A stretch of DNA of 64,000 bases from Halomarina salina (lineage in GTDB: Archaea > Halobacteriota > Halobacteria > Halobacteriales > Haloarculaceae), in NCBI RefSeq assembly GCF_023074835.1, contig NZ_JALLGW010000003.1:62001-126000 (forward strand), given 5' to 3'. The translations under genes and the position numbers were made by a program. Of the stretch, positions 5,012 through 40,169 are shown in pieces (the first letter of the stretch is position 1; each line of letters starts with the position of its first letter). Below the pieces are notes generated by a model, which saw only the letters and a list, made by a program, of their open reading frames with translations, did not search any database and was not told where the DNA came from.

Positions 5012-6175
5012 TCACGGCCGCTCGAACACGTTGACGCAACTGACCGCGCCCGTCGCGTTCCGGCCGATGCCGATGTTGTGCTGGAGACCGACCTGCGGGT
5101 CGTCGACCTGGACCGCACCGGCCTCGTCGCGCAACTGTTCGTACACCTCCGCGACCTGTGCGACGCCCGTCGCGCCGATAGGATGGCCCTTCGACAGCAG
5201 ACCGCCCGACGGGTTGACGGGCGTGTCGCCGTCGAGGCGGGTGTGGCCCTCCTCGACGAAGCGGCCGCCCTCGCCCTCGCCGCAGAACCCGAGGTCCTCG
5301 TAGGTGACGAGTTCCGTGATGGAGAAGCAGTCGTGGACCTCCGCGACGTCGACGTCGTCCGGCGCGATACCGGCGCGTTCGTACGCCTGCGACGAGGCGT
5401 GACGAGACGCCGGGAAGTTCGTCAGCGCGGCGTCCGCGCCACGCTGGAACGTGTCCGTCGACAGGCCCCACCCGGCGTGGCGGACCGGTCGGTCGGTGAA
5501 CTCCTCGGCCCGGTCCTCGCTGGCGAGCAACACCGCACAGGCGCCGTCGGTGACCGGACAGCAGTCGTAGAGGTTCAGCGGGTAGCTCACCGTCGGCGAC
5601 TCTGCGACGTCCTCGACGGAGCACTCGAACTGCTGGTGGGCGTGGGGGTACTTCGTCCCGTTCGCGTGGTTCTTGACGCTCACCTCCGCGATCTGCTCGC
5701 GGGTCGTGCCGTACTCCTCCATGTGGCGGGTCGCACGCATCCCGAAGAACGCGGGCATCGTCACGCCGCGACCGCGCCAGAGCCGTTCGAGCGCCGCGCT
5801 CTGGATGAGGCCGGCGGTGTCGTCAAGCATCTTCTCCGCGCCGATGACGAGCGCGACGTCCGCCGTGCCCGCCCGGATGGCTATCGACGCGTTCCGGAAC
5901 GCGTCGCTCCCCGTCGCACAGGCGTTCTCGACGCGCGTGATGGGCTTCTCGAATAGCCCTGTCGCGTGTGCGACCGCGGCTCCGGACGAGCCCTCGCCGG
6001 CCATGTCGATGGTGCCGTACCAGGCGGCGTCGATGTCTGCCGTCGGGTCGACGCCGTGGTCGACGTCGTCGAGCAGTTCGAGGTACGCCGACTCCAGCAG
6101 GTCGTCGAACGACTGGTCGTACAGTTCGCCGAAGTCGATCATCCCGGCGCCGACGACGTGGACGTCGCGCGTCAT
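5012..6175 (-). CDS. Thiolase family protein (acetyl-CoA C-acetyltransferase/SCP-x type), catalytically intact
   Basis: A 387-residue thiolase. The nucleophilic cysteine is present as Cys86 in ENACATGSD, the middle histidine in VHDCFSITE, and the C-terminal GGLLSKGHPIGATG and CVNVF motifs are normal. It should therefore catalyse CoA-dependent cleavage or condensation of a 3-oxoacyl-CoA in the cytoplasm. It overlaps the upstream DUF35 gene by 4 bases (ATGA). Together with the synthase-like gene before that, this forms a three-gene unit resembling the archaeal acetoacetyl-CoA thiolase/DUF35/HMG-CoA synthase complex. It is the only one of the three thiolases in the window with a complete active site. 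Confidence 0.93.
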   Translation of the reverse strand: MTRDVHVVGAGMIDFGELYDQSFDDLLESAYLELLDDVDHGVDPTADIDAAWYGTIDMAGEGSSGAAVAHATGLFEKPITRVENACATGSDAFRNASIAIRAGTADVALVIGAEKMLDDTAGLIQSAALERLWRGRGVTMPAFFGMRATRHMEEYGTTREQIAEVSVKNHANGTKYPHAHQQFECSVEDVAESPTVSYPLNLYDCCPVTDGACAVLLASEDRAEEFTDRPVRHAGWGLSTDTFQRGADAALTNFPASRHASSQAYERAGIAPDDVDVAEVHDCFSITELVTYEDLGFCGEGEGGRFVEEGHTRLDGDTPVNPSGGLLSKGHPIGATGVAQVAEVYEQLRDEAGAVQVDDPQVGLQHNIGIGRNATGAVSCVNVFERP

Positions 6176-6609
6176 CGCGCACCTCCGGTCTCTCCCTTGT
6201 TCGAACGCGGGACGCTGAACTTGAACGAGTTGACCGGCCGACGGCCGTCGCTGAACAGTTCGCGGAACCGGGCGACGACCTCGGTGCCGACCTCGATTTC
6301 CTCCAGGTCGGTCTCGGTGAGCAGACCGTAGACGCGCGCGGCCTCCCCCTCACCGTCCGCCTGGGGCAGGTCCACGACTGCGACCGGCTGGGGCGTCTCG
6401 ATGTCGTCGGGGAGATACTGCTGGACGACGAACGTCTCGACGGTCCCGCGTTCCGCCAGGACGACTTCCTCGAAGGTGGCGGGCGCGTCTCCACACCGCT
6501 TGCAGACGCGTTTCTCCTCTGGGTACGACACCCACCCGCAGTCCTGGCACTCGAAGCCGACGAGGCGCTGGTCCTGCCGACGGGTTCGGTGATAGCGCGG
6601 GCCGCTCAT
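6172..6609 (-). CDS. DUF35 (zinc ribbon plus OB-fold) acyl-CoA-binding scaffold protein
   Basis: 145 residues. The N-terminal rubredoxin-like zinc ribbon has Cys21, Cys24, Cys36 and Cys39 (CQDC and CKRC). An OB-fold follows from about residue 48. In methanogens such proteins bridge acetoacetyl-CoA thiolase and HMG-CoA synthase and hold CoA; in actinobacteria they pair with Ltp2. Here it overlaps the thiolase start by 4 bases and the synthase-like gene stop by 4 bases, which supports a complex of the three products. The role as scaffold is inferred from family and context. Confidence 0.9.
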   Translation of the reverse strand: MSGPRYHRTRRQDQRLVGFECQDCGWVSYPEEKRVCKRCGDAPATFEEVVLAERGTVETFVVQQYLPDDIETPQPVAVVDLPQADGEGEAARVYGLLTETDLEEIEVGTEVVARFRELFSDGRRPVNSFKFSVPRSNKGETGGAR

Positions 6610-7604
6610 GCGCCGCTCACCCCCTCGTACTCGACGGGTTCGCGGTACTCGAGGTGCCGGGCGTACGAGACGTACTCCTTCGCGTCGAGCAGTTCGGCGA
6701 CGGACAGGCCGTCGGTACGGTCCGCGCCCGGACCGGTCTCGAACAGCAGCGCGTCGGCCCCGCCGCCCCCGTAGTTGACCCCCAGGACGGACGTTCCGGG
6801 GTCGCTCGTCTCGAACGCTGCGACGAGGTCGAGCGCGAACGACGCCGTCCCGGCGTCCCCCACGGCCTCCCGATGTGACACGTGGTCGGCGTCCACCTCG
6901 CCGACCGCCGTACTGGCCATCCGGGTGTCGGGTGCGCCAGCGACGGCTCGTTCGGGCTCCGTCTCCGACCCGTCGAGGACCCGTCCGACCGCGGACTCGA
7001 CCGCCGGTGCGACGCCGTGTCGCCGTTCGAACCGGGCGTCGCCCGTCTCGGCGACCGAACCGTGTTCGCGGTGGTGTTCGACGAACCCCGACGTCTCTCG
7101 CCCGCTGGCGAGGAGCGTGGCGACCGGGCCGTCGGCGTCGGACCGCAGGAGGAGCGCTCCGGCCCCCGCTCCGGCGGTCGGGCTCCCGTCGTCGTCGGGG
7201 TCTGCCGGAAGCACGTCGACCGCGACGAGCAGGACGGTCTCGCCGCCAGTCGCGAACGCCGCTGCCGCCCCGAGCGCGTCGGTGACGGCCCGACGGCTCG
7301 ACCGAAAGTCACCCGTCCGGACGTCGCCGGTCGCGTCGAGTCGGTAGGCCACCTGTGCGGCGATTCCGTGTTCGGCGAACGGGTCGGTGACGCTCGCGGA
7401 CAACACCGCGTCGACCTCGGCCGCGTCGGCGGCAGACCGCGCGAGCGCCGTCGCTGCGGCCTCACACGCCATCGTCACGTGGTTCTCGTCGCGGGCCGGG
7501 ACGGCGCTCTCGCCGCTCGCCCGTCCGCCGTGCTGGTCGGCGACGTCGCGCCGATCGACGCGATACAGCGGGACGTAGCCGCCGTGCCCGTCGACTACGA
7601 CCAT
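6606..7604 (-). CDS. HMG-CoA synthase/3-oxoacyl synthase-like protein lacking the active-site cysteine
   Basis: About 332 residues with the thiolase-like fold of HMG-CoA synthase: an N-terminal half with a VDAVLSAS strand, then a DFRSSRRAVTDAL helix where the family has a nucleophilic cysteine (ACYAGT-like). Here two serines stand in its place. The glycine-rich C-terminal segment LGVNYGGGGADALL is kept. Only one cysteine occurs in the protein, far from the active site. It may be a non-catalytic partner or use another chemistry. The ATG at 7,604 (MVVVDGHGGYVPL) is preferred; GTG at 7,631 is an alternative. It is the first gene of the three-gene unit with the DUF35 and thiolase genes. Confidence 0.75.
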   Translation of the reverse strand: MVVVDGHGGYVPLYRVDRRDVADQHGGRASGESAVPARDENHVTMACEAAATALARSAADAAEVDAVLSASVTDPFAEHGIAAQVAYRLDATGDVRTGDFRSSRRAVTDALGAAAAFATGGETVLLVAVDVLPADPDDDGSPTAGAGAGALLLRSDADGPVATLLASGRETSGFVEHHREHGSVAETGDARFERRHGVAPAVESAVGRVLDGSETEPERAVAGAPDTRMASTAVGEVDADHVSHREAVGDAGTASFALDLVAAFETSDPGTSVLGVNYGGGGADALLFETGPGADRTDGLSVAELLDAKEYVSYARHLEYREPVEYEGVSGA

Positions 7605-8429
7605 CGCTTCACCTCGGACCGTACCGTGCACCGTGGTACCATTGTGAACGATTGCACACGCTCCGCACCGTAAACTGTATCGGTGGCTGCAGAGAGTCGC
7701 CGGTACCCCCGGTGGTGTCGGCGCTGAGTGGACCTCCCTAGCATATCCGTTCGGGACGACCAGTTCGGTGACGCTACAATCGACGAACCGTCGAGGACCG
7801 GTACGTCTCTCGAATCGTGATTCGCCTGCCCCAGCGGGCGTTCCAGTGAGAAGACGACGTCACACCGCACGTCGGCCACCGATGATAAATGATAACACGA
7901 TTCGTGGACGAGATCGGTTGACGTGGTACTCCGTAGCAACACTCGCCAACGGGATTCTGAAGCGAATGAGCGATATCTTCTACGGCGATCAGGCCGGCCA
8001 TCGCCAAATATCGCTTCTAAAAGTGGCCGTGCGTTGTCGTACTAGAGTTTTCTGTAAACTTTCGTACGAACGTCGCTTCGCCGGTTATCGATAGGGGCCT
8101 ATGCAAGCCCTCTCTGCGGTCGAGAGCGGCCACGGGAGCTCCTGAGTTCTTCACGCCGATACGCCGTGGCCTGGCTCGGGCGTCGTCTGCCGACACGTCG
8201 CCGAGGACGCTCCTAATTGATGCCGAACGTCGACCGTGCAACTACTTTTGATATAGTGGGTATCGTGCACGCACCTATCAGCGGCGTGTGGTGGGGGGCA
8301 TACAGGCGGGAACACAGTGCTACTCCGGCCGAATCGAGGAGGCAGGTCGCGGCTCGTGAGCGTGATCGAGTTGGTAGAACGAAGGGTGCTCGTCCGCTGA
8401 AGCGGCCCCCGCTCGTCGAGGTCGCAGTG
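7605..8429. other. Intergenic stretch, no recognisable gene
   Basis: About 825 bases between two minus-strand operons. It contains the promoter of the synthase-like gene near 7,645-7,675 and lower-GC patches (7,880-8,060 and 8,240-8,270). Short frames occur on both strands, the longest about 108 codons, but none resembles a known family or has a convincing start, so they were not called. A CGTGCACG palindrome lies near 8,263. Eroded coding sequence is possible. Confidence 0.6.
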
Positions 8430-8855
8430 TCAGCGGGGAGACGCCGACTCGTCGGGGAGCGTCGCGCTGAAGAATGGGTAGTCGGACCACCGACCCCGGT
8501 CGAGCGTTCCCGGGGCTGGACTCGGTTCGACGACCAGACGTTCGCCGATGGTGAGGTCGTCGTACGCCGCGGAAACCCGGACGAGGAGACGGACCCCGAC
8601 GTCGAGGTCGACCGTTCCGACGACCGCCGGCGCGTCGAATCCCGGCGGCGTGCGCGTGAGTTCGGTGAACGCGTGGAGCGTCCCGGTCGCATCGGTCCGC
8701 TCCCAGCCCACGTCGTCAGCGTGACAGACCGGACAGACCGGGGAGGGCGGCAGGAACGCCTCGCTACACGCCGAGCACCGCTGGACGGCGAACTCGCCGT
8801 CCGCGAGCGCCTCGAAGAACGGTGCGGCGAGTGCACCCTCACGCATCGTCGTCAC
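8430..8855 (-). CDS. DUF35 (zinc ribbon plus OB-fold) partner of the cysteine-less thiolase
   Basis: 141 residues with the zinc ribbon Cys27, Cys30, Cys41, Cys44 (CSAC and CPVC) preceded by the usual N-terminal helix FFEALADGEF, then an OB-fold (about 50-130). The start overlaps the end of the thiolase gene by 17 bases, which indicates translational coupling. By analogy with the DUF35 domain of ChsH2, which binds and activates the aldolase Ltp2, it is likely to form a complex with that thiolase-like protein. The gene ends the operon running from 11,272. Confidence 0.88.
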   Translation of the reverse strand: MTTMREGALAAPFFEALADGEFAVQRCSACSEAFLPPSPVCPVCHADDVGWERTDATGTLHAFTELTRTPPGFDAPAVVGTVDLDVGVRLLVRVSAAYDDLTIGERLVVEPSPAPGTLDRGRWSDYPFFSATLPDESASPR

Positions 8856-9996
8856 CCCCGAACACCGTCACGTTCACGCCGTCGACGTGCCCGTGCTCGG
8901 CCGACGTCAGCACCGTCGTCGCGTCCCGCACCTGGTTGGCCGCGGTCCCTCGAACCTGGCGAACCGCCTCGACGTGGTTGAGCAGCGGAGACACCATCGC
9001 CGGGTGGCCCCGACCGATACACCCTCCCGACGGGCTGATTGGCGTCGTCCCGTCGACAGCAGTCTGCCTGTCGACGGCGGCGAGCGCACCGTCTCCTCGG
9101 TCGAACAAGTCGAGTTCCTCGGAGAGAATCGCCTCCGTGTGGGGGAACGGCGCGTACAGTTCGAACACGTCGACGTCGCCCACTTCGCGGTCGGCGTCGT
9201 CGAGAGCCTCGTCCGCGGCGGCCGCCATCGCCGGGTGCCGGGCGAGCGACTCGCCGCGGACGCCGAGGTAGTGGCTCGGTGCGTGGTCGTAGCCGGTCCC
9301 AGCGATGGGAACCGGGCCGTCGGTCCGGCCGGCGTGGTCCGCACCAGTGACGACGACGGCCGCCGCACCGTCGCAGGGTGCCGGGCACTCGTACAGTCGC
9401 AACGGGCGGGCGACCGGCCGGGAGTCGAGGACGTCCGAGACGGTGGTGCCGCTCGAACGAATCGCCTCGGGGTTCGAGGCGGCGTTCTCGCGGTTCTTCA
9501 CGACGACCTCGGCGACGGCCTCCCGGGAGACGTCGTACTCGTGGCAGTAGCGCTGGAGGCTCTGCGCGTACAGTCCGGGGACGGTCGGCCCGACGGGTGA
9601 CTGGAGGTCCCGTTCGAACGTCCCGAGGATGTACGAGAGGTAGTCGTCGGTCTCGACGTGTGAGTTCCGCTCCGCGGCGAGGACGACGGCCACGTCGGTC
9701 ACACCGCGTTCGACGTCCGCGACGGCGAGTCGGAACGCGCTCCCGCCGCTCGTCCCGCCGGTGTAGGTCTCGACGTTCCGCGCGAGGTCGAGACCGAGGC
9801 GGTTCGCCAGTGCGGTCGAGAAGAACCCCTGCTCCGTCCAGGGCCGCGGCTTGGGCATGTAGAGACCGTCGACGTCGGCGAGGGCGAGGGCGGCGTCGTC
9901 GACGGCCTCCCGGAGCACTTCGGCGGCCATCTGCCACGTCGGCACGTCGTAGGTCCCGTTCGGAAGCGCGCTCACGCCGATGGCGTGTGCGGTCAT
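8839..9996 (-). CDS. Thiolase-like protein without nucleophilic cysteine (Ltp2/SCP-x-like, candidate retro-aldolase)
   Basis: 385 residues. Start taken at ATG 9,996 (MTAHAIGVSALPNG), 13 bases after the upstream stop; the ATG at 10,080 would overlap the upstream gene by 71 bases with a non-family tail. Overall fold and C-terminal GGCIGRGHPAM motif are thiolase-like, but the CATGS cysteine is absent (TGGTSGGSAFR, Ser83 region) and the HDCF histidine is replaced by Tyr281 (LYAPF). Established knowledge: Ltp2 of actinobacterial steroid degradation lacks the cysteine, works with a DUF35 protein and performs retro-aldol cleavage. Here the gene sits between a DUF35 gene and an acyl-CoA dehydrogenase, which supports the analogy. 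Confidence 0.85.
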   Translation of the reverse strand: MTAHAIGVSALPNGTYDVPTWQMAAEVLREAVDDAALALADVDGLYMPKPRPWTEQGFFSTALANRLGLDLARNVETYTGGTSGGSAFRLAVADVERGVTDVAVVLAAERNSHVETDDYLSYILGTFERDLQSPVGPTVPGLYAQSLQRYCHEYDVSREAVAEVVVKNRENAASNPEAIRSSGTTVSDVLDSRPVARPLRLYECPAPCDGAAAVVVTGADHAGRTDGPVPIAGTGYDHAPSHYLGVRGESLARHPAMAAAADEALDDADREVGDVDVFELYAPFPHTEAILSEELDLFDRGDGALAAVDRQTAVDGTTPISPSGGCIGRGHPAMVSPLLNHVEAVRQVRGTAANQVRDATTVLTSAEHGHVDGVNVTVFGGDDDA

Positions 9997-10009
9997 CGCC
10001 GTGGCCCCG

Positions 10010-11272
10010 TCATCGCTGTTCGACCCACGGCGTACCGTCCAGTTCGGCACCGACGTACTCGCCGGCGAACGCGTCGTCACGGAGTTCGTCGTAGGCGTCG
10101 TGCTGGACGATGCTGCGCATCACCTCGCTGGCTCCGCCGAGGAAGCGACCCGCACGAACGTCGCGCTGGATGCGCTCGACGGGGTAGAGCGTGGTCGTCC
10201 CGACCCCACCCATCACCTGCATCGCGGTGTCGGCCACCTCGTGGGCCGCGTCGTTCCCGAACGCCTTCGCCATCGCCCCCTCCATCCGGCCCGCCGAGAG
10301 GCCCCCCTCGTCCAGTAGCCGGGCGGCGCGGGTGTTGAGGAGGTACGCCGCGTCGAGTTTCGTCGCCGCGTCGGCGATACCGTGGTTGACCGCCTGGTAC
10401 CGCGAGAGCGGCCGCTCGTTGACGATGCGGTTGTCGGTGTAGTTCGCCGCGATCTCGAGGGCGCGCTCGGCCGCACCGAGACAGTACCGCGCGATGGTGA
10501 GGTGTTCGAGGTTCAGTTCGTTCGTGAGGTACGACCACGCCGCGCCGGGGTCGCCGACGACGTTCTCCGCGGGGACGTGAACGTCGTCGAACCGTATCCA
10601 CGCCGCGCCGGTCCCCCGGAACCCGTGCCAGTCCGAGAGGTCCATCTCGATGGAGAGACCGTCGGCGTCGCCCTCGACGAGGAGGATGGAGAGGCCGTCG
10701 CGGTCGCCCGCCTCGCCGCCGGTCCGGGCCGGGACGACGAACAGGTCGCCGTAGCGCGCGAAGTCGACGAACCGCTTCTCGCCGTTCAGCACCCACTCCT
10801 CGCCCTCGCGTCGGGCGCTGGTGTCGAGGTGAGCCATGTCGGTGCCGCTGCTCGGTTCGGTGAACGCCTGCGCGAGCACCACCTCGCCGTCGAGGAGCGG
10901 TTTCAGGTAGGTGTCCCGCACGTGGTCGCTGCCGTGTTCGTACAGCGTTCGACCGATGTGCTGGGTCAGCGACACCTGACAGGCGTGGACGATGGTGCCG
11001 GCGTACCCCAGCGCCTGTTCCGCGAGGACGGTCTCCACGACGCCCAGGCCCCCGCCGTTGTACTCCTCCGGGACCGAGATGCCGAGCAGGCCCGCGTCGC
11101 CGGCCCGCGAGACGAACTCCTGCCAGTCGGCCGCGGACTCGCGGTTCTCGTCGAGCGCGCGGAAGTGGTCCTGGTCCAGGTCGCCGACGAACACGTCGCT
11201 GCGCAGCGTCTCGACCGTCTCCTCGAGGTACTCTCGCTCCGCCTCGGTGAGTGATGTGTCTTCACCTATCAT
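10010..11272 (-). CDS. Acyl-CoA dehydrogenase
   Basis: 420 residues from ATG 11,272 (MIGEDTSLTEAERE); longer upstream extensions are not family-like. The N-terminal helical domain, the FAD/substrate segment AQAFTEPSSGTDM, the beta domain and the C-terminal QVMGGVGTTTLYPVER all fit. It should form 2-enoyl-CoA from an acyl-CoA using FAD. The usual C-terminal YEG catalytic glutamate is replaced by FLGGASE. This is the first gene of a three-gene minus-strand operon (dehydrogenase, cysteine-less thiolase, DUF35) and is divergent from the MaoC pair at 11,349, with 76 bases between starts. In steroid side-chain loci the corresponding dehydrogenases are heteromers, so a partner may exist. Confidence 0.93.
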   Translation of the reverse strand: MIGEDTSLTEAEREYLEETVETLRSDVFVGDLDQDHFRALDENRESAADWQEFVSRAGDAGLLGISVPEEYNGGGLGVVETVLAEQALGYAGTIVHACQVSLTQHIGRTLYEHGSDHVRDTYLKPLLDGEVVLAQAFTEPSSGTDMAHLDTSARREGEEWVLNGEKRFVDFARYGDLFVVPARTGGEAGDRDGLSILLVEGDADGLSIEMDLSDWHGFRGTGAAWIRFDDVHVPAENVVGDPGAAWSYLTNELNLEHLTIARYCLGAAERALEIAANYTDNRIVNERPLSRYQAVNHGIADAATKLDAAYLLNTRAARLLDEGGLSAGRMEGAMAKAFGNDAAHEVADTAMQVMGGVGTTTLYPVERIQRDVRAGRFLGGASEVMRSIVQHDAYDELRDDAFAGEYVGAELDGTPWVEQR

Positions 11273-11348
11273 GGGCCGTGGTTCTGGCAGTCGTCGGATA
11301 ACTGTTTCCCACGGTAGATTTTTGCGACGGGAGACGGGACTGTCTGGG

Positions 11349-11861
11349 GTGCCATCGAAATCGGTCGACGAGCTACAGGGCCTCGTCGGTGAGACGAGAC
11401 GGACGGTGTCGGAGTTCGTGGTCGAACGGGGCAAGGTCGCGGAGTTCGCCCGCGCCATCCACGACCCCGCCGACGTCTACCTCGACGAACGGGCCGCCGT
11501 CGCCGCCGGATACGAGACGATTCCCGCGCCGCCCACGTTCGTCCGGACGGCGTACTTCCCGCGGTACCGGCCGGACGATACCGACCAGGGACTCGGCTTC
11601 CACGAGGACCTCGGCTTCCACCAGCCGCGGACCGTCCACGGCGAGCAGCGCTACGAGTACGACCGGCCGCTCCTCCTCGGCGACGAACTGACGGGCCGGA
11701 CGACGCTGGAGGATGTCTTCGAACGGGACGGGAGACGAGGCGGAACGCTCACGTTCGCCGTCCTCCGCACGGACTTCACCGACACGGCGGGCGAGCACGT
11801 CGTCTCGGACTGGAACACCCGCATCGAGACGGGACGGGCCATCGAGGGGGAGCGCGAATGA
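11349..11861 (+). CDS. MaoC-like dehydratase, FAS1-like N-terminal type (partner subunit)
   Basis: 170 residues from GTG 11,349; no closer start fits. The hot-dog fold begins with TVSEFVVERGKVAEFARAI and continues with PPTFVRTAYFPRY. Where active MaoC hydratases have an Asp and His dyad (GDxNPxH), this protein has IHDPADVYLDE, so it is probably the non-catalytic half of a two-subunit enzyme. The stop overlaps the next MaoC gene by 4 bases (ATGA), strongly suggesting a heteromer like ChsH1-ChsH2. The hydratase would add water to the enoyl-CoA produced by the divergent dehydrogenase. Confidence 0.85.
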   Translation: MPSKSVDELQGLVGETRRTVSEFVVERGKVAEFARAIHDPADVYLDERAAVAAGYETIPAPPTFVRTAYFPRYRPDDTDQGLGFHEDLGFHQPRTVHGEQRYEYDRPLLLGDELTGRTTLEDVFERDGRRGGTLTFAVLRTDFTDTAGEHVVSDWNTRIETGRAIEGERE

Positions 11862-12256
11862 GCGACCACAGCGTCGGGGACACCGTCGAGCGGACCGTCG
11901 AGGGAATCGAGCGTGCCGACTTCGTGCGTTACGCCGGCGCGAGCGGCGACTTCAACCCCATCCACTTCGACGAACCGCACGCGCGGTCGTCGGGCTACGA
12001 GTCGCCGTTCGGCCAGGGGATGTTCACGAGCGGCGTCGCCTCGCGCGCCGTCCGCGAGGCGTTCGGCCTCCAGGGGCTCCGCGAGTTCGAGACGCGGTTC
12101 GTCTCGCAGGTCTGGCCGGGCGACGACCTGACGACGACCGTCGCGGTGACCGCCGTCGAGGAGACCGACGCCGGCGACCGTGTCGAGGCCGACGTGACGG
12201 TCACCGACCAGGACGGCGAGACGGTCGTGGAGGGGCGGGCGGTCGCCGTCGTCTGA
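11858..12256 (+). CDS. MaoC-family (R)-specific enoyl-CoA hydratase subunit
   Basis: 132 residues, a single hot-dog domain. The catalytic dyad is visible as Asp31 and His36 in SGDFNPIHFDE, followed by the usual GQGMFTSGVASRAV helix. This is the active hydratase half, coupled by a 4-base overlap with the FAS1-like half before it. Together they should convert a 2-enoyl-CoA into a 3-hydroxyacyl-CoA, which is the substrate type needed by the neighbouring cysteine-less thiolase/DUF35 pair. The next gene is convergent, 35 bases away. Confidence 0.92.
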   Translation: MSDHSVGDTVERTVEGIERADFVRYAGASGDFNPIHFDEPHARSSGYESPFGQGMFTSGVASRAVREAFGLQGLREFETRFVSQVWPGDDLTTTVAVTAVEETDAGDRVEADVTVTDQDGETVVEGRAVAVV

Positions 12257-21597: not shown

Positions 21598-22353
21598 TCA
21601 GTCCTCGACGTAGGTCATCCGCTCGTCGACCGTCTGCCAGACGTCCATACCGACGGGCGACTCACGCTCCTCGATGACCTCCGCGACGAGGCCGGCGGCG
21701 CGACTGACGATGGCGAACCCCCGTGCGGCCTCCGGGGCCAGGCCGAGGTCGGACGCGAGTGCGCCGATGGCGCCGGTGACGTTGATGGGGAGGTCACGGC
21801 CCGCCTCGTCCTCGAACGCCCCCTGGAGGTCGCGGAGGATGGCGACGTGGTCGCCGGTGACGTCGGCGTCGTCTGCGAGGTCGAAGAGGCGCTGGGCGCG
21901 CGGGTCGACGGGGTCGAACTCGGGGTGGCCGATGCCAGAGAACCGCTTCTCGCTCTCGCGGTAGGCGGCGACGAGTTCCGCCGTCGCGGCCTCGCGGTCG
22001 TCGGCCGCAGCGACGGCCTGGAGGTCGGTCGCACACTGCTCCATCGCTCCCGCGAACCGGGACCCGACGCCGAGCAGACCGCTCGCCACCGCTCCCTGCG
22101 TCGACGACGGTTCCGAGAGCAGGGTGAGGCGCGTGGCGATGGCGTGCGGGGTCGTGCCGTGGACCATCAGCGAGGAGAGCATCGCGTTGATCAGTCGCCG
22201 TTCGGCGACCGTGGGCGTCTCGCCGCTCAGGAGGTGGACGAACGCGGACCCGAAGTCCATCTCTCCCATTATCTCGGTCGTGAGGTCCTTCCCGCGAACG
22301 GTCACCGATTCCTCGTCGTGCGTCGAGAGTCGCGTCTCGTAGCTGTCGGGCAT
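21598..22353 (-). CDS. Citryl-CoA lyase-like protein (citrate synthase fold, short form)
   Basis: 251 residues from ATG 22,353 (MPDSYETRLSTH). It corresponds to the C-terminal lyase module of the citrate synthase/ATP-citrate lyase superfamily and lacks the large N-terminal part of citrate synthase. Visible segments are MGEMDFGSAFVHLLSGETPT near the N-terminus, VHGTTPHAIATRL, GIGHPEFDPVDPRAQRLF with the active-site histidine, and PINVTGAIGALASDLGL. Known relatives cleave citryl-CoA to acetyl-CoA and oxaloacetate or act on related branched acyl-CoA. Here it stands alone on the minus strand among acyl-CoA genes, so it may split a tricarboxylic or branched intermediate. Confidence 0.82.
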   Translation of the reverse strand: MPDSYETRLSTHDEESVTVRGKDLTTEIMGEMDFGSAFVHLLSGETPTVAERRLINAMLSSLMVHGTTPHAIATRLTLLSEPSSTQGAVASGLLGVGSRFAGAMEQCATDLQAVAAADDREAATAELVAAYRESEKRFSGIGHPEFDPVDPRAQRLFDLADDADVTGDHVAILRDLQGAFEDEAGRDLPINVTGAIGALASDLGLAPEAARGFAIVSRAAGLVAEVIEERESPVGMDVWQTVDERMTYVED

Positions 22354-22471
22354 CGTACCGGGAACTGCCGCGGTATGTCGTATAAATCTAGCGGGCGTCG
22401 GACTGCCGGAGGCTACCATCACGCCGCGCTACTGGGGCAATCTTGAGGAGGGTGCCCGACGTCGACCGCGT

Positions 22472-33459: not shown

Positions 33460-35094
33460 TCATCCCTGATAGCGACCGGCGATTCGGTCCCGGAGCTCCG
33501 TCTTCTGTATCTTCTCGCCGTGGGGCCCCTCCGACCGGGGGAACGCGTCGACGAACTCCACGTCCTCCGGTTCCTTGTAGTCCGCCACCCGGTCGTCGAG
33601 GTACTCGTACAGGGCCTCGGTGGTGAGCCCGTCGTCCGCACGCTTGACGAACGCCACAGCGACCTGACCGTGGCGGGGGTGAGGAACGCCGACGACCTGC
33701 GAGAGTTCGACGCCGGGGTGCTCGTCGAGGACGGTCTCGATGTCCCGCGGTGCGACGAGGAACCCGCGAATCCGGAGGGCGTCGTCCATCCGCGACTGGT
33801 AGTAGAGGTTCCCAGACTCGGGGTCGCGGACTGCGAGGTCACCCGTGTGGAACCAGCCCTCGTCGTCGAAGGCCGCCTCGGTCTTCTCGGGTTTCCCGAG
33901 GTAGCCCTCCATGACGTTGAACCCGCGGAGACACAGTTCGCCCGCCTCGCCGTCCGGGCGTTCCTCGTTCGTCTCGACGTCGACGACCCGCGCCGCTTCC
34001 TCCTCCGGAAATATCATGGGGCCGCCGACCTGCTTGCGCGTCTCGGGGTCGGCGTCCGGGTCGCCGACGAACACCTGGCTGTTCGCCTCCGAGAGGCCGT
34101 AGGGCTGGCAGACCGGGATACCAGTCCTGCGCTCTATCTCCTCGAACAGCGCCTCGTCGTACCCTATGCTGACGAAGCCGGTCGCTCCCTTCGAGAGGCT
34201 CTCGACGCGGGCCTCGTCGAACGCGTCGTGGTCGAGCAGGCGCTGGAACATCGTCGCCAGTGCCGACATGTAGGTCACACCGTAGCGTTCGACGTTCTCG
34301 ACGGTCCACTCGGGCTCGAAGTGCGTCTGAACGACCTGTGGGACGCCGTGGGTCAGCGCGCTCATGAACATGTTGTACCCCCAGACGCCACAGAACGGGA
34401 GGAGGCCCAGCGCGACGTCGTCTCCGTCGAGGCCGAAGTGGACCCCGACCTGATGGGAGTGATTGAGCATCGACCGGTTCGACTGGAGGACGCCCTTCGG
34501 GTCGCTCGTCGTCCCGCTGGTGTAGAAGACGCAGACCGGCGCCTCCGGGTCGGTCGCTGCCGGGACATCGTCGCGCCCCGCGCCCGCCTCCGTGACGGCG
34601 TCGTAGTCCCGGACAGCCGGATAGTCCTCGTGTGCGTCGAGCGCGATTACCTGGTCCAGCGACGGGACCGAGTCGGGGGCGAACGCGGAGGGTGCGCTCG
34701 TCGCTATCTCGGGGACGACGTCGGCCACCATGTCCAGATACTGGTTACCCAGGAACGACTCCTCGGTGAGCAGGACCGAACACCCGGAGTCGGTCAGCAT
34801 GTACTCCAGTTCGTGGGTCCGGTAGCGCGTGTTGACGGCGACGATAGCCGCACCGAGGTACGATGCCGCCAGTTGTGCCTGGATCCACTCCGGGCGGTTG
34901 CTCAACCAGACCGCGATGGTGTCGTCCTCGCCGACGCCCAGGTCGGCGAGGCCGTGTGCGAGCGCCCGACTCTCCTCGACGAGGGTGGCGTAAGTCGTCT
35001 CCTCGCCCTCGAAGTGAAGCGCGACGGCGTCCGGGTCGTCGCTCGCGACGTCGGCTATCCCCTGGTAGACCGTGGCCTCCGGCCAGCGCAACAT
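33460..35094 (-). CDS. AMP-forming acyl-CoA synthetase
   Basis: 544 residues. The P-loop FYTSGTTSDPKGVL, YGLSEANSQV, hinge TGDLAVRDPESGNLYYQSR and C-terminal lysine in HGEKIQKTEL identify the adenylate-forming acyl-CoA synthetase family. It makes a CoA ester with ATP. The substrate-binding segment LPFCGVWGYNMFMSAL differs from the enzyme at 23,302. It starts 45 bases after the DUF35 gene of the second retro-aldolase-like module and ends 70 bases before the binding-protein gene of the importer operon. A TATA-like TTCTTTTG about 26 bases upstream gives it its own promoter. Confidence 0.93.
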   Translation of the reverse strand: MLRWPEATVYQGIADVASDDPDAVALHFEGEETTYATLVEESRALAHGLADLGVGEDDTIAVWLSNRPEWIQAQLAASYLGAAIVAVNTRYRTHELEYMLTDSGCSVLLTEESFLGNQYLDMVADVVPEIATSAPSAFAPDSVPSLDQVIALDAHEDYPAVRDYDAVTEAGAGRDDVPAATDPEAPVCVFYTSGTTSDPKGVLQSNRSMLNHSHQVGVHFGLDGDDVALGLLPFCGVWGYNMFMSALTHGVPQVVQTHFEPEWTVENVERYGVTYMSALATMFQRLLDHDAFDEARVESLSKGATGFVSIGYDEALFEEIERRTGIPVCQPYGLSEANSQVFVGDPDADPETRKQVGGPMIFPEEEAARVVDVETNEERPDGEAGELCLRGFNVMEGYLGKPEKTEAAFDDEGWFHTGDLAVRDPESGNLYYQSRMDDALRIRGFLVAPRDIETVLDEHPGVELSQVVGVPHPRHGQVAVAFVKRADDGLTTEALYEYLDDRVADYKEPEDVEFVDAFPRSEGPHGEKIQKTELRDRIAGRYQG

Positions 35095-35139: not shown

Positions 35140-35601
35140 TCAGTCCAGTCCGAACACCGGGACGGACACGTCCTCGCGTTCGGTGGGAACGAACTCGACG
35201 CCGACGCTCGCGCCCACCTCGACGTCGTCCGGGTCGCAGTCGACCAGATTCGTCATCACCCGCGGCCCCTCGACGAGTTCGACGTACGCGACGACCAGCG
35301 GCAGGTCCGCCTCCGGCCACCCCTCCATCCGCTCGGCGACGGAGTAGGTGTAGACGGTCCCCTCACCGGACGCCTCGGTCCACTCCGTCTCCGCGAAGCA
35401 GTCCGGGCACCGCGCCCGCGGGTAGTGGACGACGAGGCCGCAGTCGGGACAGCGACTGAGCAGCAACACCCCGTCGCTCGCGGCCGCCCAGTACCGTTCG
35501 CTCTCGGGTGTCACGTCGGGCAGCGGTCGCGGCTCCCATGTCTCCGGTGCGTCGCTCATCTCGTCCGACCCGTCGCGCTCGTCGTCCGACCCGTCGCTCA
35601 T
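35140..35601 (-). CDS. DUF35 (zinc ribbon plus OB-fold) partner of the second cysteine-less thiolase
   Basis: 153 residues from ATG 35,601; the first 20 residues are acidic and variable, and ATG 35,559 is also possible. The helix SERYWAAASDGVLLLSR leads to a zinc ribbon with Cys51, Cys54, Cys65, Cys68 (CPDC twice), then an OB-fold with GEGTVYTYSVAERM and VMTNLVDCDPDDVEVG. It overlaps the thiolase-like gene by 4 bases. The predicted role is to bind and complete that protein, as the DUF35 domain of ChsH2 does for Ltp2. Confidence 0.88.
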   Translation of the reverse strand: MSDGSDDERDGSDEMSDAPETWEPRPLPDVTPESERYWAAASDGVLLLSRCPDCGLVVHYPRARCPDCFAETEWTEASGEGTVYTYSVAERMEGWPEADLPLVVAYVELVEGPRVMTNLVDCDPDDVEVGASVGVEFVPTEREDVSVPVFGLD

Positions 35602-36767
35602 GTCCGGCCCTCCGCGCCGAGGACGAGCGTCGCCGCCCCGTGTCTGGTGGCGATGGAGCCGCCCGTGCCGTGGGCGAGTGCGACGTCGGCGTCGACCTGC
35701 ACCTCCTCGTTGGCCTCGCCGCGCACCTGCCGGACGGCCTCGATGACCTTCGTCATCCCGCCGCGGTTCCCGGGGTGGTTCGAGCAGAGGCCCCCGCCGT
35801 CGGTGTTGAACGGCAGGTCGCCGTCCGCTCTGAGGGTGCCGCCCTCGACGAACCGCCCGCCCTCGCCCTTCTCGCAGAATCCCAGGTCCTCCAGCGCTTC
35901 GAGGACGGTGATGGTGAACGAGTCGTAGATGGAGGCGTAGTCGACGTGTTCGGGGCCGAGACCGGCCTCCGCGAACGCCCGCTCGCCGGACTGGACCGCG
36001 CCGGTCGTCGTCACGTCGACGCGCCCCGCGTCGTGGTGTTTCGGGGCCTCGCCGTGGCCGAGCACCTCGACGCACTCGCGGTCGAGGTCGGCACGAACGT
36101 CCTCGCTGACGACCAGCAACGCACCGCCGCCGTCGGAGATGACACAGCAGTCCAGCAGGTGGAGGGGGTCGGCGACGACGGGCGAGTCGAGGACGTCGTC
36201 GACCGAGACGGGGTCCTGGTACATCGCGTCGTCGTTGTACTGCGCGTGGTAGGAGGCGGCGGCGCGAACCTCCGCCAACTGGGCGCTCGTCGTCCCGTAC
36301 TCGTGCATGTGGCGACGTGCCGTCATCCCGTACATCGTCACGTTCGTCGTGCCGTAGATGCGCTCGTAGCTGTCCTGGACGGTCCGGAGCTTCCGGGTTC
36401 CCGACCCGGTGGCCTGCCCCCGCGAGCGTGGCCGCCCGGCGAGCGTGACGAGCGCGACGTCGCACTTCCCGTCGCGGATCGCGCTCGCCGCGTGCCCGAC
36501 GTGGGCGACGTACGACGACCCGCCGTAGTCCGTCGTGTCCGCGTACGACAGGTCGAGGCCGAGGTAGTCGGCTGCCATCAGCGGCGTCAGCGAGTGCTCC
36601 ATCTCCGGGACGCCCGCCGTGAAGTACGCGTCGACCGCGTCCTTCGAGAGGCCGGCGTCGTCCAGTGCCCCCGCCGCCACGTCGGCGGTCAGTTGCATGG
36701 TCGACCGGTCCGGAGCCTCCCGCGTCGGGTGTTCGAACGCACCAGCGACGTACACGGACTCGGCCAT
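35598..36767 (-). CDS. Thiolase-like protein without nucleophilic cysteine (Ltp2/SCP-x-like, candidate retro-aldolase)
   Basis: 389 residues from ATG 36,767, which overlaps the stop of the small ORF before it. The segment that should hold CATGS reads DTTDYGGSSYVAHVGHA (78-94), so the cysteine is missing. The middle motif is IYDSFTITVLE with Tyr281 in place of the histidine of HDCF. The C-terminal GGGLCSNHPGNRGG (324-337) is kept. This combination is that of the steroid side-chain aldolase Ltp2 rather than of thiolases. With the DUF35, MaoC, dehydrogenase and CoA-transferase genes of the same operon it gives a second retro-aldolase-like module. It is clearly diverged from the copy at 8,839. 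Confidence 0.87.
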   Translation of the reverse strand: MAESVYVAGAFEHPTREAPDRSTMQLTADVAAGALDDAGLSKDAVDAYFTAGVPEMEHSLTPLMAADYLGLDLSYADTTDYGGSSYVAHVGHAASAIRDGKCDVALVTLAGRPRSRGQATGSGTRKLRTVQDSYERIYGTTNVTMYGMTARRHMHEYGTTSAQLAEVRAAASYHAQYNDDAMYQDPVSVDDVLDSPVVADPLHLLDCCVISDGGGALLVVSEDVRADLDRECVEVLGHGEAPKHHDAGRVDVTTTGAVQSGERAFAEAGLGPEHVDYASIYDSFTITVLEALEDLGFCEKGEGGRFVEGGTLRADGDLPFNTDGGGLCSNHPGNRGGMTKVIEAVRQVRGEANEEVQVDADVALAHGTGGSIATRHGAATLVLGAEGRT

Positions 36768-36913
36768 CAGACCACACCTCCCGACCCGTCCCTCGTGGAG
36801 CTGTCGACGACTACCGTCGCGTCGGGGTAGTCGAGTTCTCTCGCCGTCGTGCGACCGGTGCCGTGGCCGTCGACGGTGGCGATACACCGCTTCTCGTCCG
36901 GAATGTCACTCAT
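36767..36913 (-). CDS. Small ORF of 48 residues inside the second retro-aldolase-like operon
   Basis: ATG 36,913 lies 12 bases after the CoA-transferase stop, and the TGA stop (36,769-36,767) overlaps the ATG of the thiolase-like gene. The product begins MSDIPDEKRCIATVDGHGTG and has one cysteine, a Gly-rich turn and a hydrophobic strand. No family is recognised. Tight packing on both sides supports translation; it may be a small subunit, a coupling ORF or the remnant of a larger gene. Confidence 0.45.
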   Translation of the reverse strand: MSDIPDEKRCIATVDGHGTGRTTARELDYPDATVVVDSSTRDGSGGVV

Positions 36914-36925
36914 GAGTCGTAGCTC

Positions 36926-38404
36926 TCAGTCTCTGTCGGCGTGCCAGTCGAGCGCAGTTTCGATGTCGTGTGGGATGTGGCCGCCGCGTGAGCGGCCGCG
37001 GTTCAGGTAGTCGGTCAGGTCGTCCCGGTAGTCGGGGTGGGCGCACTCCTCGACGAGCGCACGGGCGGTCTCCCTGGGAGCGTTCCCCCGGAGGTCCGCG
37101 ACCCCCTGTTCGGTGACGACCACGTCGACGTCGTGTTCGGTGTGGTCGACGTGCGGGACCATCGGGACGATGCGAGAGATGTCGCCACCGGCCGCCGTCG
37201 ACGGCAGGGCGACGACGGCCAGCGGCGAGTGGCGGTTGAAGTCGCCGCTGCCGCCGACGCCGTTCATCGCCCGCGTCCCGTCGACGTGCGTCGAGTTGAC
37301 GTGCCCGAACAGGTCGAGTTCGAGCGCGCTGTTGACGGCGACGACGCCGAACCGGTCGATGAGCGCCCCGCTGTTCGAGAGGTCGGCGGGCCGGAGGACG
37401 ACGTCCTCGGCGTAGCGCTCGGCGTTCTCGAACAGACGGTCCTGGCCCTCGGTCGAGAGCGCGAGCGACGTCGCGCTCGCGGCGGTCAGTTCGCCCTCGT
37501 CGAGCAGGTCGAGCAGGCCGTCCTGGATGACCTCGCCGAAGTAGATCAGGTCCCGGTCCCCGAGGTCGGTGTCGCCGAGCGCCCCCATCAGGGCGTTGCC
37601 GAGGCTGCCGACCCCGAACTGGATGCGCAGCGACTCCTCGAACAGCGGCGAGCGCTCGACCTCGCGTTCGACGAACTCGCGGAGGTTCGCGGCGATGGTC
37701 CGGTCGTCGTCGGTCGGGTCGCGGAACGAGTACGGCTGGTCGCGCCGGTCGGTCTCGACCACCGCATCGAGTTTCTCGGGGTCGAACGTGACGCGCTCGC
37801 CCCCGATTCGCCCACCGGGGTCGGTGAGCGGAATCGGGTCGCGGTTCGGCGGCGTCCCCGGGCGGTAGACGTCGTGGAACGCGGCGAGTTCGGTCGGGAC
37901 CGTCTCGTTGACCTCGACGACGAGGCGGTCGGCGCTCTCGACGAACGCGGGCGTCTGACCGATGCTCGTCGAGGGAATCAGCCAGTCCGCGCCGACCGCC
38001 AGCGCCTCGACGACGGCGACGCGCTCTCCCTCTCCGGTGAGACCGCCGAACTGCACTTCGTCGCCGAGCGTGCTGACGTCTCGGTCGTGGAACGCGATAC
38101 GGCCGTCGTTGACCGCCGCCCGCGCTGGCGGTCGCGCCTGATACGGAAACCGGCGGGCGATTGCGTCGGCCTCGACGAGGGCGACGTCTATCTCCTCGCC
38201 GACGCTCCCGCCGCTGACGACGGTCAGGGCGAGGTCACGCCCAGAGTCGGCCAGCGCGAGCGGGACCGCCTTCGGGTAGCCGACGCTCCCGAACCCGCTG
38301 ACCAGCAGCGTCGCGTCGTCCTCGACGTCGGCGGCCACGTCCGCGGCGCTTCGGACGGGGAGGTCGCCCTGTAAGCGGGCTGTGGTCGAACGCTCGCCGC
38401 CCAT
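36926..38404 (-). CDS. Acetyl-CoA hydrolase/transferase family CoA-transferase (Cat1/AarC-like)
   Basis: 492 residues from ATG 38,404, whose last base is shared with the stop of the MaoC gene (TGATG type). The two Rossmann-like CoA-transferase halves are visible: LLVSGFGSVGYPKAVPLAL near the N-terminus and QFGVGSLGNALMGAL with YFGEVIQDGLLDLLDEG near the middle, the latter glutamate being the likely CoA-carrying residue. The end has VTEQGVADLRGNAPRETA, typical of acetyl-CoA hydrolases/succinyl-CoA:acetate transferases. It may recycle CoA from or to the acids made by the module. Confidence 0.9.
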   Translation of the reverse strand: MGGERSTTARLQGDLPVRSAADVAADVEDDATLLVSGFGSVGYPKAVPLALADSGRDLALTVVSGGSVGEEIDVALVEADAIARRFPYQARPPARAAVNDGRIAFHDRDVSTLGDEVQFGGLTGEGERVAVVEALAVGADWLIPSTSIGQTPAFVESADRLVVEVNETVPTELAAFHDVYRPGTPPNRDPIPLTDPGGRIGGERVTFDPEKLDAVVETDRRDQPYSFRDPTDDDRTIAANLREFVEREVERSPLFEESLRIQFGVGSLGNALMGALGDTDLGDRDLIYFGEVIQDGLLDLLDEGELTAASATSLALSTEGQDRLFENAERYAEDVVLRPADLSNSGALIDRFGVVAVNSALELDLFGHVNSTHVDGTRAMNGVGGSGDFNRHSPLAVVALPSTAAGGDISRIVPMVPHVDHTEHDVDVVVTEQGVADLRGNAPRETARALVEECAHPDYRDDLTDYLNRGRSRGGHIPHDIETALDWHADRD

Positions 38405-38946
38405 CAGTCGTCCTCCGGTTGCGTGCCGACGCCCGCTGGCCACCCCGGCGGCTTGGCGGCCGAGGGTTCGGCGTACTCGCGTTTGAGTACCATCGGCGTC
38501 CGCTCCAGCGAGAGCACCAGGTCGTCGTCCTGATTGTACGCCCGGAGTTCGGTCGTGACGATGCCGACGTGGTCTCGGCTCTCCGTTTCGCGCTTCGAAA
38601 CCACCTCCGACTCGGAGAACAGCGTGTCGCCGTGGAAGACGGGCGCGTGATGGCGGATGTCGTCGTAGCCCAGGTTCGCCGTCGCGTTCATCGAGACGTC
38701 GATGACGCTCATCCCGACGACGAGGGCGATGACGAACGTCCCGTTGACGAGTCGTTCGCCGAACTCCGTCTCCGCGGCGTACGCCTCGTTGAAGTGCATC
38801 GGGTTGACGTTCATCGTGACGTTGGTGAACCAGACGTCGTCCGTCTCGGTCACCGTCCGCCCGTACGGGTGCTTGTAGACGTCGCCGATCTCGAAGTCTT
38901 CGTAGAACCGTCCCTGCCAGCCGTCTTTGAGTGTGCGTTCGCTCAT
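38404..38946 (-). CDS. MaoC-family enoyl-CoA hydratase
   Basis: 180 residues from ATG 38,946. The hot-dog domain has the hydratase helix region TNVTMNVNPMHFNEAYA with His51; the usual catalytic aspartate is Asn46, a variation seen in the mesaconyl-CoA hydratase-like branch. GERLVNGTFVIALVVGMSV follows. It would hydrate the enoyl-CoA formed by the dehydrogenase 5 bases upstream. The single subunit here replaces the two-subunit hydratase of the first module. Confidence 0.92.
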   Translation of the reverse strand: MSERTLKDGWQGRFYEDFEIGDVYKHPYGRTVTETDDVWFTNVTMNVNPMHFNEAYAAETEFGERLVNGTFVIALVVGMSVIDVSMNATANLGYDDIRHHAPVFHGDTLFSESEVVSKRETESRDHVGIVTTELRAYNQDDDLVLSLERTPMVLKREYAEPSAAKPPGWPAGVGTQPEDD

Positions 38947-38951
38947 CGTAA

Positions 38952-40169
38952 TCAGTAGCTCCGTGGGAGGTCGAGGACGTTCTCCCCGATGAAGTTCAGT
39001 GCGAGCTGTTGCGTGATGGGGACCAGCCTGGTCAGCCGAGCCTCGCGGAAGTAGCGCTCGACGTCGTACTCGCGGGCGATGCCGAACCCGCCGTGGGTCT
39101 GGACGGCGGCGTCGGCGGCCTCGAACGCGGCGTTCGCGGCGAGGAACTTCGACATGTTCGCCCGCGCGCCGACGTCCTTCGCGTCGTCGTCGCCGACGGC
39201 GGCGCTCGCCGCGCTGTACACCATCTGCTTGGCGGCCTGGACGTGCGCGTGTGCCTCGGCCAGCGGGTGCTGAATCGCCTGGTTCGAGCCGATGGGTCGA
39301 CCGAACACCTCGCGTTCGTTCGCGTACCCGACGCCCGCCTCGATGGCCGCCTCGCCGAGACCGACGCACTCGGCGGCGATGACCAGACGCTCCTCGTTGA
39401 GACCGTCGAGCATCTGGTAGAACCCCTCGCCCTCCTCGCCGATGGCCGCCGACACCGGGAGCCGGAGGTCCTCGAAGAACAGCTCGTAGGAGTGGACGAA
39501 GTTACTCGCCGTCTTGTCGATCTGCTTGAGCTCCAGTCCGCCCTGGTCGTACGCCTCCTCCAGATCGACGAGGAACATCGTCAGGCCTCTCGTCCGCTTC
39601 TCGACCTCGTCGCGCGGCGTGGTGCGAGCCATCAGAATGAGGTAGTCGCTGGCGTCGACGCGGGAGATCCATATCTTCTGGCCGTTGACGAGGTACTCGT
39701 CCTCGTCGGCGTCGCCCGCGCCCCGTTCGGCGCGCGTCTCGATGGCCGTCGAGTCGGAGCCGGCGTTCGGCTCGGTGAGTCCGAACGCCTGGATGGACGT
39801 CTCGCCGCGGGCCACCTCGGGGACGATCTCCTCTTTCATCTGCTCGCTCCCGTACTCGACGAGCGGGACGGAGTTGTAGATGGCACCGTGGACCGCCTGT
39901 GCGGCACTGAACCCGCCGCCGGAGGCCGCTATCTCCTCCATCATGACGACGACCTCCTCGGTCGTCATGCCCGCCCCGCCGTACTCCTCGGGGAGCAACG
40001 CGCCGAACCAGCCGTGCTCTCCGAGCGTGTCGACGAACTCGCTCGGGTACTCTCCTGCGGCGTCCTTCTCGCGCCAGTAGGCCGCGTCGTACTCGTCGCA
40101 GACGTCTCGTATCGACTCCCGGACCAGTTGTTGCTGGTTCGAGAGTTCGACCGTGTCAGTACTCACCAT
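38952..40169 (-). CDS. Acyl-CoA dehydrogenase
   Basis: 405 residues. Markers: QAFGLTEPNAGSDSTAIETR for FAD and substrate, DKTASNFVHSYELFFEDLRLP in the beta domain, and QTHGGFGIAREYDVERYFRE in the last domain. The C-terminus (ITQQLALNFIGENVLDLPRSY) lacks a clear YEG glutamate. First gene of the second retro-aldolase-like operon (dehydrogenase, MaoC, CoA-transferase, small ORF, thiolase-like, DUF35). Its start lies 50 bases from the stop of the PrpD-like gene, which is on the same strand upstream. Confidence 0.93.
   Translation of the reverse strand: MVSTDTVELSNQQQLVRESIRDVCDEYDAAYWREKDAAGEYPSEFVDTLGEHGWFGALLPEEYGGAGMTTEEVVVMMEEIAASGGGFSAAQAVHGAIYNSVPLVEYGSEQMKEEIVPEVARGETSIQAFGLTEPNAGSDSTAIETRAERGAGDADEDEYLVNGQKIWISRVDASDYLILMARTTPRDEVEKRTRGLTMFLVDLEEAYDQGGLELKQIDKTASNFVHSYELFFEDLRLPVSAAIGEEGEGFYQMLDGLNEERLVIAAECVGLGEAAIEAGVGYANEREVFGRPIGSNQAIQHPLAEAHAHVQAAKQMVYSAASAAVGDDDAKDVGARANMSKFLAANAAFEAADAAVQTHGGFGIAREYDVERYFREARLTRLVPITQQLALNFIGENVLDLPRSY

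Follow-up and report, generated by a model that had tools for sequence, protein, structure and literature searches.

Thiolase-fold genes of the window

The stretch of haloarchaeal DNA analysed here, referred to as the window, is 64,000 nucleotides long; it runs from base 62001 to base 126000 of contig C3 (261 kb), part of a 4.46 Mb genome. It carries three genes, P0001, P0003 and P0004, for proteins of the SCP2-type thiolase fold, each overlapping a DUF35 gene of its own by 4 to 17 bases; this report is concerned chiefly with P0003 and P0004, which lack the nucleophilic cysteine of thiolases. All three are among the 9 proteins of the genome with a Thiolase_C_1 domain and among its 13 Thiolase_N matches. 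A sequence-only reading of the window had proposed three thiolase/DUF35 pairs, and all of them are found, the pair at 5012 being better described as a trio with a gene at 6606-7631 that resembles 3-hydroxy-3-methylglutaryl-coenzyme A (HMG-CoA) synthase. The two cysteine-less pairs are encoded as follows:

8430..8855, minus strand: P0005, zinc-ribbon/OB DUF35 partner of P0003, overlapping it by 17 bases
8839..9996, minus strand: P0003, cysteine-less thiolase-fold protein with the signature YAPFPH / GHP / EHGH
35140..35601, minus strand: P0007, zinc-ribbon/OB DUF35 partner of P0004, overlapping it by 4 bases
35598..36767, minus strand: P0004, cysteine-less thiolase-fold protein with the signature YDSF / NHP / GTGG, above the NCBIfam PRK08142 cut-off

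Active-site residues and their conservation

With the starts placed at Met29 of open reading frame (ORF) 8839-10080 for P0003 and at Met41 of ORF 35598-36887 for P0004, both proteins have Tyr281 in place of the histidine of the thiolase HDCF motif, as the sequence-only reading had counted. The loop that would hold the cysteine reads TYTGGTSGG in P0003 and TDYGGSSY in P0004, with Gly at the Cys position in each, so that neither possesses the nucleophile expected of a thiolase (acetyl-CoA acyltransferase). The remaining motifs are YAPF and GHP in P0003 and YDSF and NHP in P0004, the residue after Tyr281 being Ala in the former and Asp in the latter. P0004 matches Pfam Thiolase_N and Thiolase_C_1, and its SCP2-type fold is also found by Foldseek/VIA on a model.

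Among 341 genomes searched of the same class, 18 carry a P0003 ortholog (at least 430 bits, next match 201) and 23 a P0004 ortholog (at least 512 bits, next match 293). Tyr281 without the Cys is found in every one of these haloarchaeal proteins, 18/18 of the P0003 family and 23/23 of the P0004 family. Every P0003-family member has Gly-Gly at the Cys loop, Y[AVT]PFPH, GHP and a C-terminal EHGH, with Tyr281, His286, His331, Glu367, His368 and His370 all invariant; the position after the tyrosine holds Ala, Val or Thr282 instead of Asp, and the third place of the motif holds Pro283 instead of His or Cys. In the P0004 family Gly at the Cys place, YDSF and Ser283 are found in all 23 proteins, NHP in 22 (NQP in one) and His331 in 22. 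The sequence-only reading would have been undone by a cysteine elsewhere taking over the role, and the candidates for this are Cys326 (17/18 of the P0003 family, L011 having Pro) and Cys328 (22/23 of the P0004 family), both on the GHP loop; neither is universal, and a relocated cysteine was rejected.

Invariant columns are concentrated in the active-site loops, which were picked by hand from the alignment: 22/31 against 81/354 elsewhere in the P0003 family (p 9e-8) and 17/31 against 100/358 in the P0004 family (p 0.003). Ratios of nonsynonymous to synonymous substitution (dN/dS), which are rough because dS is high in some pairs, are about 0.21 for P0003 against L011 and 0.03-0.07 for P0004 against L041 and L042. 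Both genes are under purifying selection.

Phylogeny and structure models

The alignment pairs Tyr281 of both proteins with Tyr294 in Ltp2 and with Tyr302 in Sal, the proven catalytic bases of two thiolase-fold aldolases. According to PMC12329534, the base of Ltp2 is Tyr294 of its YDHF motif and its acid is Tyr344; the corresponding pair in Sal is Tyr302 and Cys304, from YDCY, and both enzymes have Gly at the nucleophile place. P0004 shares N-T-x-G-G and G-T-G loops with both enzymes. The places of the acid residues are taken by Ser283 and His331 in P0004 and by Pro283 and His331 in P0003.

A tree of 50 of the 83 aligned rows, calculated with the active-site columns removed, places the P0004 family, its bacterial orthologs, the solved protein 4u4e, Sal and Ltp2 on one side of a branch (100/100), Sal and Ltp2 being long branches. 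The P0003 family joins bacterial proteins with YAPC in place of YAPF (99/99) and sits among Cys thiolases in the best tree, in which the Tyr/His state needs two changes. A single clade of the 33 Tyr rows costs 2.6 log units and is not rejected by the approximately unbiased (AU) test (p 0.39), nor is a single Cys-less clade that includes L001 and 4yzo (p 0.30). Two independent origins of Tyr281 are therefore suggested, not shown. The sequence-only reading had argued that the same double change in two diverged copies speaks for selection rather than decay; since one Tyr/no-Cys origin is not rejected, the two copies may not be independent and that argument loses its force, while selection itself is strongly borne out by conservation across genomes. 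Placed by sequence, P0004 lies within the Ltp2/Sal clade on a branch that is uncharacterised and shows a third arrangement at the acid places, and P0003 belongs to a separate family with an active-site signature of its own.

L001 (G000:C1:2871625-2875053), which groups with the Sulfolobus protein 4yzo (99/97), is another Cys-less SCP2-thiolase-like protein of the window's genome, with TSSSG and HDMF motifs; a DUF35 gene was not found within 6 kb of it.

Relatives of both families occur on bacterial plasmids. Those of P0004, from several genera, are 52-62% identical to it, and those of P0003, from Achromobacter, Roseomonas and Cupriavidus, are 33-35% identical and carry YAPC and Leu326. A pattern scan of genome contigs with the P0003-family motifs returned 14 loci, all haloarchaeal, the patterns being strict enough to miss any relatives that lack them.

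AlphaFold models were built for P0003 from 18 sequences (predicted local distance difference test score, pLDDT, 77.1) and for P0004 from 23 (pLDDT 74.5). The P0004 model matches Sal best (Z 42.3, root-mean-square deviation 3.0, 364 residues aligned), then TbSLP (40.8), with others within one point of TbSLP, Ltp2 scoring 40.2. The P0003 model matches 7yvy (43.7), 6esq (43.6) and Ltp2 (42.7).

Gene neighbourhoods

The genes around the two pairs are:

10010..11458, minus strand: acyl-CoA dehydrogenase, its stop 13 bases ahead of the P0003 start; the ORF end is given, the true start lying probably further inside
11858..12256, plus strand: MaoC-like hydratase, divergent from the P0003 operon
33460..35094, minus strand: adenosine monophosphate (AMP)-forming acyl-CoA ligase, downstream of P0007
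36926..38443, minus strand: CoA-transferase of the succinyl-CoA:acetate type, above the NCBIfam ScpC cut-off
38404..38946, minus strand: P0008, MaoC-type hydratase, best NCBIfam match RipB/Ich at 172 bits, below the cut-off of 340
38952..40169, minus strand: acyl-CoA dehydrogenase of the P0004 operon

On the minus strand the P0004 operon runs from an MmgE/PrpD-like gene through the acyl-CoA dehydrogenase, the MaoC-type hydratase, the ScpC-like CoA-transferase, P0004, P0007 and the AMP ligase to genes for a branched-chain-type ATP-binding cassette (ABC) importer, the PrpD-like and importer names coming partly from a reading of the translations. Beyond the operon, at 43000-64000, the G+C content falls from about 0.68 to 0.59-0.64, and no gene call starting past 43 kb was matched in the compared neighbourhoods. 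In the same catabolic island 21598-22422 encodes a citryl-CoA-lyase-like protein (NCBIfam PRK06224, 277 bits, above cut-off), an 81% ortholog of which lies near the P0004 ortholog of genome G252.

Gene context was scored within 6 kb of 17 P0003-family genes (16 of the 18 genomes, leaving out G238, where the gene is cut by a sequence boundary, and G000, the window itself, and adding the Halomarina plasmid L127), of 23 P0004-family genes (22 of the 23 genomes, without the window's own, and the same plasmid) and of 17 Cys-thiolase controls, which were hand-picked rather than random (12 lower-scoring search matches and five from the window's genome). A DUF35-like gene lies near the thiolase in 17/17 P0003-family and 23/23 P0004-family loci, against 7/17 controls. 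For the P0004 family, the P0003 family and the controls respectively, acyl-CoA dehydrogenase genes are found at 16/23, 5/17 and 6/17 loci, crotonase-type hydratases at 15/23, 2/17 and 8/17, 3-hydroxyacyl-CoA dehydrogenases at 11/23, 5/17 and 2/17, MaoC at 10/23, 2/17 and 2/17, and short-chain dehydrogenases/reductases (SDR) at 8/23, 5/17 and 4/17. The excess over controls near the P0004 family gives a Fisher p of 0.02 for 3-hydroxyacyl-CoA dehydrogenase and 0.04 for MaoC, values that are uncorrected and come from related loci. In Achromobacter and Roseomonas the loci of the P0003 relatives comprise MaoC, dehydrogenase, thiolase and OB-protein genes, with no 3-hydroxyacyl-CoA dehydrogenase listed there.

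The two families co-occur in 10 of the 341 genomes where 1.2 would be expected (p 7e-9, relatedness ignored). They lie within 36 kb of each other in seven of the ten, and on the Halomarina plasmid they are 18 kb apart.

Proposed reaction and alternatives

From the residue positions, their conservation, the modelled fold, the DUF35 pairing and the operon content we infer that P0003 with P0005 and P0004 with P0007 may form conserved, catalytically competent, DUF35-coupled enzymes that would be incapable of Cys-dependent thiolysis and would most likely act as retro-aldol acyl-CoA carbon-carbon lyases, a reading to which we give about an even chance. The acyl-CoA dehydrogenase would make an enoyl-CoA and the hydratase would add water to it. 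Tyr281 would then take the proton from the beta-hydroxyl and the alpha-beta carbon bond would break, yielding a short acyl-CoA enolate and an aldehyde or ketone, with His331 (of GHP or NHP), Ser283 in P0004 and the backbone amides of the Gly loops holding and protonating the enolate. The combination of dehydrogenase, MaoC hydratase, thiolase and DUF35 genes in the P0004 operon of the window fits a retro-aldolase. In favour of this reading we also count the place of P0004 in one clade with Ltp2 and Sal, the structural match of its model to Sal, the Achromobacter and Roseomonas loci of the P0003 relatives and the co-occurrence of the two families. Since this operon also has a branched-chain-type importer and a ScpC-like CoA-transferase beside its MaoC hydratase, our guess for the P0004 substrate is a small branched or dicarboxylic acid. 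An itaconate pathway, which the RipB-like hydratase, the CoA-transferase and the PrpD-like protein might suggest, was considered, but P0008 falls below the RipB cut-off and the acyl-CoA dehydrogenase does not fit. No steroid ring-degradation genes are among the genes annotated here, although no search aimed at such genes was made.

For the P0003 family, comprising the haloarchaeal proteins and their YAPC relatives in proteobacteria, we tentatively entertain something further, though we think it somewhat unlikely: that it could be a third kind of Cys-free lyase on the thiolase fold, evolved separately, with a catalytic set of its own in its six invariant residues, perhaps as a metal-binding or multi-His site, and not a variant of the Ltp2/Sal site.

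A number of observations weigh against the retro-aldolase. The known catalytic acid, Ltp2 Tyr344 or Sal Cys304, is absent in both proteins, so that the aldolase-type active site proposed by the sequence-only reading, although plausible, is only partly supported. According to PMC12329534, Sal variants C304A, C304S and C304H have no detectable activity, so Ser at the place that it takes in P0004 inactivates Sal. PhlC, an acylase of the same fold, has Tyr at the Tyr281 place (a correspondence taken from match coordinates) and yet keeps its Cys, according to PMC6392133. The models are of moderate confidence, and that of P0003 fits Cys thiolases as well as Ltp2, so that fold ranking does not discriminate. 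The MaoC gene present in the window's P0004 operon lies near only 10 of the 23 P0004-family genes, and the haloarchaeal context of P0003 says little because MaoC is near just two of its 17. Besides the excess of 3-hydroxyacyl-CoA dehydrogenase near the P0004 family, such a gene lies directly upstream on the same strand, 132-148 bases away, in six of the 23 loci (L073, L076, L079, L081, L085, L088), and its product would be a 3-keto substrate. No other evidence speaks as strongly against a simple retro-aldolase, and within that reading we have no explanation for it. An SDR dehydrogenase also adjoins the gene in three of the four bacterial P0004 orthologs inspected, and none does so in the fourth. 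A tyrosine without the cysteine does not, therefore, prove an aldolase: the acid is absent, PhlC has the Tyr, and P0004 relatives often stand beside a 3-hydroxyacyl-CoA dehydrogenase.

The same dehydrogenases, together with the acyl-CoA dehydrogenases and crotonase-type hydratases of most P0004-family loci, speak for a retro-Claisen reaction, in which the P0004 family, and perhaps P0003, would cleave a 3-ketoacyl-CoA or another beta-dicarbonyl and take the place of the thiolase in a beta-oxidation operon; water or CoA would attack the substrate directly, and no covalent intermediate with Cys would be formed. We regard this as unlikely, though far from negligible. The window's P0004 operon has no adjacent 3-hydroxyacyl-CoA dehydrogenase, MaoC is enriched near the P0004 family as well, and P0004 falls inside the Ltp2/Sal clade. 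We know of no Cys-free thiolase-fold enzyme with a retro-Claisen reaction, which we count against it.

The fold might also be used in another direction or for another chemistry, such as aldol- or Claisen-type addition, acyl transfer or decarboxylation. PhlC, with its Tyr at this place, is an acylase, and TbSLP (YDCF), the second structural match of P0004, is described in PMC12329534 as a weak malonyl-CoA decarboxylase. The catabolic setting, with its importer, ligase, CoA-transferase and dehydrogenases, and the lack of a nucleophilic Cys for an acyl-enzyme make this improbable. We hold little expectation, too, that P0003 and P0004 are inactive scaffolds or CoA-binding partners of another enzyme kept for complex formation. 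That such subunits persist is shown next door by P0006, the HMG-CoA-synthase-like protein of the 5012 trio, for the catalytic Cys is gone in 30/30 aligned haloarchaeal sequences (P0006 and 29 relatives); there, however, the Cys site is occupied variously by Arg, Pro, Glu, Gly, Ala or Thr, whereas the active-site loops are the most conserved part of the P0003 and P0004 families. Pseudogene decay of two thiolase copies would account for the lost nucleophile, but it is very improbable, as the frames are open and the loss of Cys and the Tyr281 replacing His are invariant across many genera with dN/dS well below 1.

The trio at 5012-7631 and other observations

The intact thiolase of the window belongs to a set of three genes:

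5012..6175, minus strand: P0001, intact SCP2-type thiolase with Cys86, His281 of HDCF and His331 of GHP; closest solved relative the acetoacetyl-CoA thiolase 6esq
6172..6609, minus strand: P0002, DUF35/OB_ChsH2_C partner of P0001, overlapping it by 4 bases
6606..7631, minus strand: P0006, HMG-CoA-synthase-like third subunit with the catalytic Cys replaced by Arg

P0001 has all the residues of a thiolase, with Cys86 in NACATG and HDCF at 281, both as the sequence-only reading had seen, and GHP at 330. P0006 matches PRK04262 with 111 bits and does not have the catalytic Cys and His pair of an active HMG-CoA synthase, the His being missing in 29 of the 30 aligned sequences and retained in L182. 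A Cys thiolase gene adjoins the P0006-type gene in all 30 loci scanned, including P0006's own, and it is likely that in the trio the thiolase subunit alone is catalytic. In many genomes the length of the P0006-type open frame points to a fusion, in which an OB domain may be the other part.

Elsewhere on the contig, two Thiolase_N matches of identical score lie towards opposite ends (C3:1127-1849 and C3:244219-244941 of G000), which may reflect a repeat or a duplicated terminus of an assembled replicon.

Comparison with known thiolase-fold systems

In the literature searched, with subscription papers mostly outside it, the thiolase-fold aldolases with proven activity belong to the breakdown of steroid and bile-acid side chains, and the YAPF and YDSF families are treated in none of the papers found, those on haloarchaeal thiolases, DUF35, aldolases or steroids included. 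Should the retro-aldol reading hold, it would add two more conserved Cys-free active sites, both from catabolic islands of archaea and one also common to many bacteria, and the fold would have been turned more widely to non-thiolytic carbon-carbon cleavage, the acid residue differing from case to case. Genes of the P0003 and P0004 types would then be misannotated as 'thiolase' or 'acetyl-CoA acetyltransferase'. A single window with a matched set of an intact thiolase, a YDSF and a YAPF protein, each with its own DUF35 partner, makes a convenient test system.

The trio at 5012-7631 resembles the PhlABC acylase and the archaeal thiolase/HMG-CoA synthase/DUF35 complex (5m3k, 6esq) in having three genes, since P0006 adjoins P0001 and P0002 and is, like PhlA according to PMC6392133, without the catalytic Cys. 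Unlike PhlABC, P0001 looks from its sequence like a CoA thiolase.

Among the cysteine-less proteins of known structure, the putative thiolase 4u4e of Sphaerobacter thermophilus is the closest in sequence to P0004 (274 bits), with YDSF, no Cys and the His kept, but is only about 40% identical to it. For P0003 the PDB entry that matches best in sequence (133 bits) is 4yzo, the thiolase-like ST0096 of Sulfolobus tokodaii, which also lacks the nucleophile Cys; unlike P0003, it keeps HD at the HDCF place (HDMA) and has no Tyr.

The characterised aldolases resemble the window's pairs in general design. The steroid aldolase Ltp2-ChsH2(DUF35) (6ok1), of the same clade as P0004, shares the SCP2-thiolase fold, Gly for Cys, Tyr for the HDCF His and a DUF35 partner. 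It differs in having YDHF and Tyr344 where P0004 has YDSF and His331 and P0003 has YAPF and His331, and in the window the hydratase and DUF35 are on separate genes. The bile-acid aldolase Sal-Shy(DUF35) (9myr), the best structural match of P0004, likewise shares the fold, both replacements and the DUF35 partner; against its Cys304 of YDCY and Gln347/Gln352, P0004 has Ser283 and His331, and P0003 has Pro283, with Cys326 at the Gln347 place in 17 of 18 family members.

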